Positions 46,731 through 55,512 of a stretch of DNA of 64,000 bases are shown piece after piece; positions within the stretch are counted from its first letter, which is position 1, and each line of letters opens with the position of its first letter. The position numbers and the translations under genes were made by a program. The notes beneath the pieces are model-generated. The model was not told where the DNA came from. It saw only the letters and a program-made list of their open reading frames with translations, and searched no databases. Source of the DNA: Rhizobium sp. GN54 (GTDB taxonomy: Bacteria; Pseudomonadota; Alphaproteobacteria; Rhizobiales; Rhizobiaceae); contig NZ_JAJNCZ010000001.1 in assembly GCF_021026345.1 (NCBI RefSeq), forward strand, positions 558,001 through 622,000. Reading direction: 5' to 3'.

Positions 46731-47489
46731 TCATGCCGGCCCCCGAGCCGGTATTCGACCCGCGCAAGTCGTTGCGCGAAAAGAGCATTTTTCGCGCCGC
46801 GGACGCGGCGCTGCTGGACCCCGGATCGGGTCCGGGGTGACGGGGGTATGGGTGGTGCGCCTTGCTTCAAGGGCGGCGCTGGTAGGTGGGCCGATTGCTT
46901 CGGCCGGGGATGACGCGGACGGCGGGGCAGGCTCTTTCCTCTCCGTCATACCGGCCCCCGAGTCGGTATCCAGCCCGCGCAAGTCGTTGCGCGAAAAGAG
47001 CATTTCCCGCGCCGCGGACGCGGCGCTACTGGACCCCGGATCGGGTCCGGGGTGACGGGGTTATGGGTGGTGCGCCTTGCTTCAAGGGCGGTGCTGGCAG
47101 GTGGGGCGGTTGCGTCGGTTCGGCATGACGCGGACGGCGGGGCAGGCTCTTTCCTCTTCGTCATACCGGCCCCCGAGTCTGTACCCAGCCCGCGCAAGTC
47201 GTTGCGCGAAAGGAGCATTTTCCGCGCCGCGGACGCGGCGCTGCTGGACCCCGGATCGGGTCCGGGGTGACGGGGGTATGGGTGGTGCGCCTTGCTTGAA
47301 GGGCGGTGTTGGCAGGCGGGTCGGTTGCTTTGGGCGCGGCATGACGCGGTGGCGGGGTAGCCCTTGCTCCTGTCATGCCGGCCCGCGGGCCGGTATCCTT
47401 CACGCGCAAACCCCTTGTGCGGATGAGCCTTTTCCGTGCCGCGGACGCGGCGCTGCCGGGTCCCGGATCGGGGCCGGGGTGACGGAGGC
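46731..47489. repeat. Four-copy tandem repeat, unit about 215 bp
   Basis: Near-identical units begin at 46731, 46946, 47161 and, shorter and more diverged, 47373. Each starts TCAT(A/G)CCGGCCC-CGAG and runs through CGCGCAAGTCGTTGCGCGAA, CGCGCCGCGGACGCGGCGCT and CCCGGATCGGGTCCGGGGTG. The first three then have GGGTGGTGCGCCTTGCTT. Each unit contains several hairpins (TTGCGCGAA-type, GCCGCG-GACGCGGC and CCCGGATCGGGTCCGGGG). It fills the 892-base gap between lysin and portal; no gene is seen there. Confidence 0.9.
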
Positions 47490-53601: not shown

Positions 53602-54009
53602 ATGGTGGCGCAGAAGGGGCGGGACCTGCTGTTGAAGGTCGAGGACGGGGGGAGTTTCGTGACGGTCGCGGGTTTGCGGACGAAGCGGCTTTCCTTCAAC
53701 GCGCAGGCCGTCGACGTGACGGATGCGCAGTCGGCGGGGCGCTGGCGGGAGCTTCTGGGCGGGGCCGGCGTGCAGCGCGCGTCGGTCTCCGGCGGCGGCA
53801 TCTTCAGGGACCAGGCCTCGGACGCACTGGTGCGGGCGGCGTTCTTTGCCGGCGACATCCTGTCGTTTCAGCTGGCGATCCCAGACTTCGGCACGGTGAG
53901 CGGCCCGTTCCAGATCACCGCGCTCGAATATTCCGGCAATCACGACGGCGAGGTGCTGTTCGAGATCGCGCTGGAATCGGCCGGTGCGCTCTCCTTCGGG
54001 GCGCTCTGA
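53602..54009 (+). CDS. Major tail tube protein, TP901-1 family (gp9-like)
   Basis: A 135-residue tail tube protein. It has VAQKGRDLLLKVEDGGSFVT, LRTKRLSFNAQAVDVTDAQS, a WRELLGGAGVQRASVSGGG block and the late FQITALEYSGNHDGEVLFEI strands typical of TP901-1/GTA tail proteins. The ATG at 53602 has a clear AAAGGAG site. It builds the tail tube. Its stop codon overlaps the next start (TGATG). Confidence 0.92.
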   Translation: MVAQKGRDLLLKVEDGGSFVTVAGLRTKRLSFNAQAVDVTDAQSAGRWRELLGGAGVQRASVSGGGIFRDQASDALVRAAFFAGDILSFQLAIPDFGTVSGPFQITALEYSGNHDGEVLFEIALESAGALSFGAL

Positions 54010-54482
54010 TGCGGGCGCTTGCGACGACAGGGCGGGCAGGACGGGCCAACCGCCGGCGCGGCGAGATCGAGGCGGTGCTCGACGGCGAGCGCCGCATCCT
54101 CTGTTTGACGCTGGGCGCACTGGCGGAGCTGGAGACGGCCTTTGCGATCGACAACCTCAACGAACTCGCCGCCCGCTTTTCGCGCGGCGGCCTCAGCGCC
54201 CGCGACATCATCCGCATCCTCGGCGCCGGCCTTCGCGGCGGCGGCAACCTTTTCAGCGACGAGGACGTGGCCGGCATGACCGCCGACGGCGGGCTGGAGG
54301 CCGCGGCCCGGGCGGTGGCGGAGCTGCTGCTCGCGACGTTCGGCCCGGGTGACAGGAGTGGCGGCGGGGTCGGCGACGGGCCTGCGGACGCGGGGAGCGG
54401 CGCCGGTTTCGGACAAAGCCCGGTATCGCACGGAACGGAGGGGGACGATGCAAACCCTCCGGTGCCGCATCCGGCGCGGTAA
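54009..54482 (+). CDS. GTA gp10-like tail assembly chaperone
   Basis: A 157-residue protein of the GTA gp10 family. The conserved part (about 15-115) has GEIEAVLDGERRILCLTLGA, LAELETAFAIDNLNELAARF and RGGLSARDIIRILGAGLRGG. The last 40 residues are a Gly/Asp/Pro-rich tail. Tail assembly chaperones in siphophages are often made in two forms by -1 frameshifting. Here the tail overlaps a second conserved reading frame and contains a slippery heptamer at 54452-54458. Confidence 0.85.
   Translation: MRALATTGRAGRANRRRGEIEAVLDGERRILCLTLGALAELETAFAIDNLNELAARFSRGGLSARDIIRILGAGLRGGGNLFSDEDVAGMTADGGLEAAARAVAELLLATFGPGDRSGGGVGDGPADAGSGAGFGQSPVSHGTEGDDANPPVPHPAR
54452..54458 (+). other. Candidate -1 programmed frameshift site in tail chaperone overlap
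   Basis: In the reading frame of the upstream gene the sequence reads GCA AAC CCT, giving the heptamer A AAC CCT, which fits the X XXY YYZ pattern. Slipping back one base would place ribosomes in the frame that encodes the rcc01693-like protein. That frame is open from 54353 but has no ATG, GTG or TTG before 54539. Function is inferred. Confidence 0.5.
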
Positions 54483-54538
54483 CCTCCGCCCCGGCGCCCT
54501 TTCCCTGGAAGGCGGCGCTGCAGGCGGGGCTCTGCCGG

Positions 54539-54733
54539 ATGCGGCTCGATCCGAAGACCTTCTGGACGATGACGCCGCTCGAGCTTGCGATCGCGACGGG
54601 GATGCACCGCGACGCCGGCACGGGCGCGCCGGGACGAGGGGCGCTCGAGGCGCTGATGCTGCGCTTTCCCGACCGCGCCTTCGGGCACGGCAATGCCGAC
54701 GATGACGGTGGCCCTGTGAAGCCGGCTGAGTGA
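54539..54733 (+). CDS. rcc01693-like tail assembly protein (second chaperone frame)
   Basis: From the first ATG this gives 64 residues (MRLDPKTFWTMTPLELAIAT and onward) resembling the rcc01693 family, which follows gp10 in GTA clusters. The family's conserved start, PFPW followed by a helix, is encoded upstream in the same frame at 54497-54538 (PFPWKAALQAGLCR) but is not preceded by any normal start codon. The protein may therefore be made as a -1 frameshift fusion to gp10, or from the internal ATG as a shortened form. The frame also contains the family's ALEALMLRFPD segment. Confidence 0.65.
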   Translation: MRLDPKTFWTMTPLELAIATGMHRDAGTGAPGRGALEALMLRFPDRAFGHGNADDDGGPVKPAE

Positions 54734-54966
54734 CGGCTGGCCACCAATGGATGTGACAGTGGGCACGGCGGTCGACAGGCATGGCGAGCGGGCTTGCCAT
54801 CAGGCACTGCCGCCGCCGGCGACTTGCGGCTGAGGGCTTGATCGACTGCTCGCCGCGACCTGCGGACGGTCTACGCGGGCGGAAGCGCCGGGGCGGATGA
54901 GGCGCGGTCGGGCGGATGCGGCCGGGCGGTGGCGGGAATGGTTTGCCGAAACGACGGAGTTTCACC

Positions 54967-55512
54967 ATGGCGGAAACGGATGACCGGCTGCTGGCCGGGA
55001 CGATGGAGAGCGCAGAGGCGCTGGGTTCGGTATTCGACGACCTCGAGGCGCGCTCGCGCTCCTTCGGCGCCGCGCTGACGGGCGCGCTGCGATCGGCGAC
55101 GGTCGACGGGCGCGGGCTGGAGGACGTGCTGAAGGGACTGGCGCTGCGCATCAGCGACATCGGGCTCTCGGTGGGGCTGAAGCCGCTCGAGGGGCTGCTG
55201 TCCTCCGGCATCGCCGGGCTTGCCGCCGGCGTGACGCCCTTTGCCAAGGGCGGCGTGGTGGCGGCGCCGACCTATTTTTCGGCCGCAGGCGGCCTCGGCC
55301 TGATGGGCGAGGCCGGCGCGGAGGCGATCCTGCCGCTGCAGCGCGGGCCGGACGGGGCGCTGGGCGTCGCAGCCGGCACGGGCGGCACAAGCGGGGGCGC
55401 GAACATCGTCTTCAACGTGACGGCGAGCGATGCCGCGAGCTTCATGCGCTCGCAGGGGCAGATCGCCGCCATGCTGACCCGGGCCGTCGGGCGCGGGCAG
55501 CGCGGACTTTGA
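54967..55512 (+). CDS. Short tail tape measure protein (gp11-like)
   Basis: A 181-residue protein resembling GTA tape measure proteins. It has DDRLLAGTMESAEALGSVFD, LRSATVDGRGLEDVLKGLAL, RISDIGLSVGLKPLEGLLSS and the family's GGVVAAPTYFSAAGGLGLMG and GEAGAEAILPLQRG. It sets tail length. At 181 residues it is very short, as in GTAs, so a short tail is expected. The ATG at 54967 was chosen over an ATG at 54916 because the family begins near this point. The preceding 233-base gap shows no gene. Confidence 0.88.
   Translation: MAETDDRLLAGTMESAEALGSVFDDLEARSRSFGAALTGALRSATVDGRGLEDVLKGLALRISDIGLSVGLKPLEGLLSSGIAGLAAGVTPFAKGGVVAAPTYFSAAGGLGLMGEAGAEAILPLQRGPDGALGVAAGTGGTSGGANIVFNVTASDAASFMRSQGQIAAMLTRAVGRGQRGL

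Follow-up and report, generated by a model that had tools for sequence, protein, structure and literature searches.

Sequence comparison supports a candidate programmed -1 frameshift joining two tail-chaperone genes in gene transfer agent clusters of Alphaproteobacteria

Introduction

Phage lambda slips at GGGAAAG. The -1 frameshift of E. coli dnaX takes place at A AAA AAG, a heptamer preceded at about 10 nt by a Shine-Dalgarno (SD)-like element and followed by a hairpin. The frameshift of lambda-type tail chaperones is reportedly covered by work of Xu, Hendrix and Duda from 2004. Passages of PMC5009743 describe lambda gpG and gpGT as tail assembly chaperones made via a -1 frameshift. Similar excerpts are available for phage Adele and the Vandenendeviridae, where a -1 frameshift of the tail chaperone was inferred by alignment at a GTTTTT site (PMC12846349), and for Caulobacter phage phiCbK, where the pre-tape-measure chaperone undergoes a -1 frameshift at AAAAAAC or GGGAAAC (PMC3556154). 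A section of PMC8601537 notes that most of the R. capsulatus phages it covers have tail-chaperone frameshifts. As to gene transfer agents (GTAs), a part of PMC10299305 proposes a +1 frameshift in a hydrolase gene of the putative Wolbachia GTA WOStri, and RcGTA g10 and g10.5 are listed as tail chaperones 1 and 2 in a paper whose main text, in the parts consulted, does not use the word "frameshift" (PMC11409702). PMC7296036 names neither rcc01692 nor rcc01693, and in the searched text of three papers that treat phage chaperone frameshifts (PMC3711429, PMC5009743 and PMC10885494) the term "gene transfer agent" does not occur. Within the open-licence PMC literature we found no report of a -1 frameshift for GTA g10/g10.1.

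Here we analyze a stretch of 64,000 nt from Rhizobium sp. GN54 (GCF_021026345.1, contig NZ_JAJNCZ010000001.1, forward strand, 558,001-622,000), which we call the window and number from its first letter. We propose, with a probability of roughly 86%, that g10 and the frame behind it that encodes a PFPW motif (g10.1) are a single alphaproteobacterial GTA gene for a tail assembly chaperone, recoded via a -1 slip on AAACCCT. As in lambda, two ORFs lie ahead of the tape measure gene, a -1 shift towards the end of the first would give access to the second, and the site is of the XXXYYYZ type; unlike lambda, the system belongs to a domesticated particle and to families PF11836 and PF09550, and the site is A AAC CCY, which often directly abuts the stop, with an SD-like element upstream and no downstream structure found. 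The upstream element is shared with dnaX, which differs by its downstream hairpin and its A AAA AAG site. Adele resembles the locus in a -1 chaperone shift deduced from alignment, and phiCbK in a -1 shift within a pre-tape-measure chaperone, but both differ in their sites and are phages, whereas WOStri is GTA-like but its proposed shift is +1 and concerns a hydrolase, not a tail chaperone. The gene pair occupies the same position as in RcGTA and shares pfam11836 and the rcc01693 family model with it.

Materials and methods

Loci were sampled over family, order and class, chiefly as best-scoring TIGR02216 matches. The 253 loci comprise 130 from 267 hit genomes, 5 from a genus search, 92 order-level loci from 174 hit genomes (3 of them fetched with the class set) and 26 class-level loci from 31; the duplicates L001, L037-L039 and L067 stand outside this count. 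Removal of L006 and L095, which lack g10, and of L098, which lacks g10.1, left 250 loci; removal of L085, where g10 was wrongly assigned, left 249, and the tree holds 248. A second set from IMG/VR comprises 196 loci, 195 with both genes and 175 with distinct junctions; in one part of it 80 of 142 were kept, and the IMG/VR loci may share organisms with the genome set.

A start was defined as ATG, GTG or TTG between 30 nt ahead of the g10 stop and PFPW (249 loci), and a heptamer as an XXXYYYZ motif that lies in the g10 phase within the final 48 nt of that gene. The codon background was taken from the g10 and g10.1 codons of the same loci. For the SD test, 7-mers beginning 11-18 nt ahead of the heptamer were scored, and the ten upstream codons were permuted 300 times.

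Results and discussion

Gene layout and predicted products in the window

Profile searches of the window identified head and tail genes of GTA type arranged as an ordered cluster. The products portal, prohead protease, capsid, connector, head closure, TIGR02217, TIGR02218, TIGR02219 (NlpC/P60) and GTA_megatron (1683 bits) all scored over their NCBIfam cut-offs, and Pfam assigned a tail completion protein to g8 and a tail tube protein to g9. The tail tube gene g9 (53602-54009, forward strand; Phage_tail_2 PF06199, 1.1e-43; TIGR02126, 112 bits against a cut-off of 37) ends in a TGA that overlaps the ATG of g10 at 54009. g10 (gp10, Rcc01692-like; 54009-54482, forward strand; Phage_TAC_11 PF11836, 1.2e-25) predicts a short tail-chaperone product of 157 aa and closes with a TAA at 54480-54482. 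It is followed by the PFPW/rcc01693 domain of g10.1 (54497-54673, forward strand; Phage_TAC_6, 1.7e-15; TIGR02216, 68.9 bits against a cut-off of 56.1), with the PFPW residues themselves encoded at 54497-54508. These two ORFs sit between the tail tube gene and the gene for a short tape measure protein, g11 (54967-55512, forward strand), which has PHROG tape-measure matches and reached 134 of the 220 bits of the RcGTA tape measure equivalog cut-off (RcGTA_tape NF058675). By this score, the cluster is RcGTA-like and not of the strict RcGTA type. A gap of 233 nt (54734-54966) separates g10.1 from the tape measure ATG.

A sequence-only reading of this DNA had stated that the PFPW frame has no ATG, GTG or TTG ahead of PFPW, is open back to 54353 and is the -1 frame relative to gp10, and that an in-phase A AAC CCT lies in the overlap; all of this was confirmed. 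The frame extends from behind a TGA at 54350-54352 to its terminal TGA at 54731-54733, an ATC at 54425 is the sole other table-11 start in the stretch from 54353 to PFPW, and AAACCCT occupies 54452-54458 (forward strand) in the phase of g10. Strict in-phase XXXYYYZ sites are rare in the cluster: the 13 genes of the window GTA cluster hold 3 in 3868 codons, GGGTTTG at 53670 (g9), CCCGGGT at 54344 (g10) and AAACCCT at 54452 (g10). Seven nt upstream of the latter is an SD-like sequence, GGAGGGGG (54437-54444, forward strand), a putative frameshift stimulator. The element also precedes an ATG at 54448, which lies in the third frame and opens a frame that runs to 54705; this ATG is probably a chance occurrence.

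We propose that most ribosomes would end gp10 at the TAA at 54480, and that a minority would be held by pairing of the upstream GGAGGGGG with 16S rRNA and shift back by one base at A AAC CCT, the Asn and Pro tRNAs re-pairing on AAA CCC. Ribosomes that slipped would bypass the g10 stop and translate the -1 portion of the predicted fusion (54458-54733, forward strand; 91 codons plus TGA), giving a 241-aa gp10-PFPW protein. The products computed from the sequence are this fusion of about 24.4 kDa and the 157-aa gp10 of about 15.8 kDa; the junction peptide of the fusion would end ...DDANPSGAASGAVTSAPAPFPWK, and its unshifted gp10 counterpart ...DDANPPVPHPAR. By analogy with lambda gpG/gpGT, both products would serve to load the short tape measure protein and to initiate assembly of the tail tube. 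The sequences themselves show how the genes are laid out, the lack of a start and the presence of the heptamer, and that heptamer, frame and SD-like element are conserved; slippage, how often it happens and a role as chaperones are what we infer.

Both products match tail-chaperone families (PF11836; PF09550/TIGR02216, "rcc01693 family"), names that are annotation, and the description of PF11836 also mentions a tail tube protein. Structure models of gp10 and g10.1 had pLDDT values of 81.8 and 83.3. The gp10 model had no match under E 1 in the PDB, and weak to moderate matches in BFVD, the best at 5.6e-4 (unnamed) and named tail assembly chaperones from 2.1e-3; some of the BFVD matches are named tail tube protein. 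The structure search with the g10.1 model returned nothing significant, and sequence homologues in the PDB were limited to chance-like matches. Fold comparison aside, the gene pair has, at the level of sequence, each of the lambda-type features tested.

Heptamers at junctions that lack a start codon

Aligned junctions of relatives, the check proposed in the sequence-only reading, carried the heptamer in phase across Rhizobiaceae and beyond, and the pattern was repeated in IMG/VR; this comparison supports the candidate frameshift between gp10 and the rcc01693-like protein. As in the window, g10.1 lies in the -1 frame in 228 of the 250 loci with both genes, a relation that alone proves little because an ATGA-type overlap yields the same frame. 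More informative counts came from loci without a start whose g10 stop lies ahead of PFPW, where an in-phase heptamer was present in 45/68 and each other phase had 1/68. AAACCC accounts for 30 of the 45, followed by GGGAAA (7), CCCTTT (6) and GGGCCC (2). A count of 73/104 includes loci with TTTCCCT in PFPW, and 45/68 is the figure to use. Loci in frame 0 or +1 had no heptamer (0/21). The difference between no-start loci and those with an ordinary start or another frame (45/68 versus 8/65; Fisher p 1.6e-10) is uncorrected for relatedness, as is the corresponding IMG/VR comparison (12/18 versus 12/74; p 5.5e-5), in which one of 6 frame-0/+1 loci, L278, had a heptamer. Tree-corrected independent pairs (treekit) were not significant, with 6 pairs on supported branches and about 2 informative; the tree of 248 loci is short and weak, and its change counts of 41 (heptamer) and 70 (start type) were left unused.

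The whole frame is free of ATG, GTG and TTG in 53 of the 68 no-start loci and in 25 of the 36 where g10 ends past PFPW. A strict heptamer is lacking in 23/68; in a wider cut that includes overlap loci, the looser N NNC CCY was found in phase in 24 of the 31 without a strict heptamer, and the two remaining phases gave 11 and 5. TTTCCCT within PFPW was considered as independent evidence and downgraded, those codons being common at PFPW in every class. Loci with the stop beyond PFPW use CCC in 29/32 and those elsewhere in 142/183 (p 0.10), and the same comparison in IMG/VR gave 13/14 versus 92/159 (p 0.0095). Sites of the TTTCCCT/CCCTTTC type on PFPW codons are weak evidence, largely explained by the usual PFPW codons.

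Nucleotide constraint and an upstream SD-like element

At 50 loci from 24 genera, g10 ends in Asn-Pro-stop. The Asn codon is AAC in 50/50 (background: AAC 122, AAT 71), and the Pro codon is CCT in 42, CCC in 8 and CCG or CCA in none, whereas in the background CCG leads among Pro codons (238/473) and CCT makes up 38/473. An A precedes AAC in 49/50, against 7.2% of background codons ending in A. The 76 corresponding IMG/VR loci replicate this pattern (AAC 76/76, CCT 66, CCC 10, preceding A 74/76). Selection at the protein level alone would not give this bias for AAC, CCY and the preceding A. From the heptamer to PFPW, the -1 frame is open in 81/81 A AAC CCY loci, whereas 59.7 were expected from shuffled spacers.

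The duplex of GGAGGGGG with the anti-SD is about -10 kcal/mol in the window, where the element taken alone is not significant (12/300 codon permutations were equally strong). Across 80 A AAC CCY loci, however, the SD-like element was stronger than in permuted sequences, with z -6.3 and 0/300 permutations as strong. It was also seen at 12 CCCTTT loci (z -2.8), and the test was not significant at 9 GGGAAA and 20 TTTCCC loci. The peak lies at -15 when the stop touches the heptamer and at -14 when the stop is one codon on; at 23 A AAC CCY loci with the stop at least 13 nt away it is broader and strongest at -24. RNA structure downstream of the heptamer showed no excess: its mean z was -0.35 and -0.43 for the two sets of A AAC CCY loci, no stronger than the -0.44 and -0.60 of an upstream control, and such structure was not supported as a stimulator. 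Transcriptional slippage was set aside since the site has no long homopolymer.

The same data bear on a variant compatible with the main reading, in which a single Pro tRNA slips at C CCY, aided by a stop at the next position. We regard it as a real but rather unlikely possibility. It would fit 35 loci with NNC CCY-stop and no strict heptamer (G GAC CCT, C CGC CCT, T TCC CCC and similar), which share the SD-like element (z -6.0). Yet in the window and at other loci the stop lies several codons past the heptamer, so its proximity cannot be essential there, and the A AA part of the site is itself strongly conserved.

Ordinary start codons at the junction

A more conventional explanation is that g10 and g10.1 are ordinary overlapping genes, g10.1 being translated by termination-reinitiation at a TTG, ATG or GTG that overlaps the end of g10; in the window a rare start such as the ATC at 54425 would serve instead. 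Among the 249 loci, ATG or GTG stands at the overlap in 44, and 62 have a TTG without either somewhere from 30 nt ahead of the g10 stop to PFPW. Many relatives have a TTG overlapping the g10 stop (CCTTGA), a feature that the sequence-only reading had not described. An in-phase heptamer was found at 35 of the 62 TTG-only loci, at 11 of 18 with an ATG or GTG only further downstream, and at 8 of the 44 with one at the overlap; these 8 indicate that frameshifting and an ordinary start may coexist.

For the TTG, the family consensus A AAC CCT TGA places it inside CCTTGA, and where CCT has changed to CCC or TGA to TAA or TAG, the TTG is lost and the heptamer and frame are retained. On this pattern the TTG is best read as a by-product of CCTTGA. 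The spacing of the SD-like element agrees: 52 ATG/GTG-start loci have an SD peak at initiation distance (7-mers beginning 11-13 nt ahead of the start), but 65 CCT-TGA loci have no peak at 11-13 nt from the TTG and have one 20-25 nt ahead of it, which is 14-19 nt ahead of the heptamer. By position, the element is spaced to the heptamer and not to the frequent TTG that follows. A start site would also leave A AAC CCY unexplained and is absent from the window frame ahead of PFPW as ATG, GTG or TTG, and we regard ordinary overlap as improbable for this gene pair.

Separate starts are clearly used in other lineages. In family f74, represented by the best-scoring 30 of 90 hit genomes, the second gene differs from that of the window in having an ordinary start in 29/30 loci (ATG 28, GTG 1, unclassed 1) and no heptamer (0/30). 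We infer that f74 is Rhodobacteraceae from the RcGTA tape match of its member G927, the only genome of 289 at class level to exceed the cut-off of the RcGTA tape model. Both genes are present at 27 loci of family f61: at 21 of them g10.1 has an ATG/GTG start and the heptamer is missing, and the other 6 are startless with g10 running beyond PFPW. The ordinary starts of the RcGTA-side lineage may be why the well-studied RcGTA did not reveal a frameshift.

Genus-mates and deposited records

A g10.1 was present in 5/7 genomes of the genus, that of the window included. The in-phase heptamer is found in the window and in L003, L004 and L005, out of four genus-mates with a g10.1 match; L003, the sole genus-mate with an ATG at the g10 stop, retains it nonetheless. 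The junctions of L003-L005 are those of L037-L039, from a Rhizobiales isolate, Rhizobium rhizolycopersici and R. subbaraonis. In the fourth genus-mate (L006, genome G004) g10 is gone and a g10.1 remnant is fused to portal-gene sequence, an internal deletion of the GTA cluster. The case named beforehand as speaking against a frameshift, close relatives in which a normal start stands without the heptamer, was absent from the genus, where 3/3 g10-bearing genus-mates carry the heptamer; junctions of that kind do occur in more distant lineages (the f74 and f61 loci above). That g10.1 of the window is a decayed or mis-sequenced gene that lost its start codon is very hard to credit: the remnant in L006 and the ATG of L003 would fit it, but the PFPW domain scores over its curated cut-off and the startless layout is repeated in independent genomes, and a base-call error, also raised beforehand, is unlikely because L004, L005 and Shinella sp. 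PSBB067 (A AAC CCT, startless) share heptamer, frame and the lack of a start.

Two deposited phage contigs, L261 (MW091529.1) and L262 (MW462191.1), have an A AAC CCT TGA junction, and their annotated g10.1 CDS begins inside the conserved domain after PFPW and thus omits PFPW. A recoded gene, if confirmed, would explain such possible mis-calling of the conserved PFPW gene. In Methylobacterium bullatum the junction reads G GAC CCT TGA and contains its TTG.

ORFs after A AAC CCY junctions have a median length of 182.5 aa in the genome set (20 complete of 21) and 182 aa in IMG/VR (67 of 69), with 181 in the window, and the medians after other junctions are 193 and 195 aa. These similar lengths indicate that the short ORF marks GTA-like tails and not frameshifting.

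Retention and replacement of recoding among GTAs

From this distribution, many alphaproteobacterial GTAs seem to have retained lambda-type chaperone frameshifting, and others to have replaced it. A broader reading, to which we give even odds, is that GTAs keep a phage-type recoded chaperone whose slip on NNC CCY (best A AAC CCY), a site frequently adjacent to the stop, is driven by the SD-like element, and that recoding was swapped more than once for overlapping starts. Under this reading, swaps to overlapping start codons during domestication, as in the RcGTA family, would mean that chaperone stoichiometry is set differently among GTAs. If the frameshift is real, a regulatory device of phages has survived in a domesticated element, one and the same short tail can be compared in nature with and without frameshifting, and the junction is a well-replicated instance of -1 slippage at a Pro codon, stimulated by an SD-like element and lacking detectable structure downstream.

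Two repeats were also found. The IMG/VR locus L278 (IMGVR_UViG_2788499834_000002) carries the frameshift module in tandem triplicate, with AAACCC at 969, 1064 and 1159; the repeat unit is 95 nt (3n-1), and each -1 slip would enter the g10 frame of the next copy, making the triplication a possible natural test case. In the window, upstream of the portal gene, neighbouring ORFs about 215 nt apart (46837-47270) have near-identical translations, which suggests an intergenic repeat.
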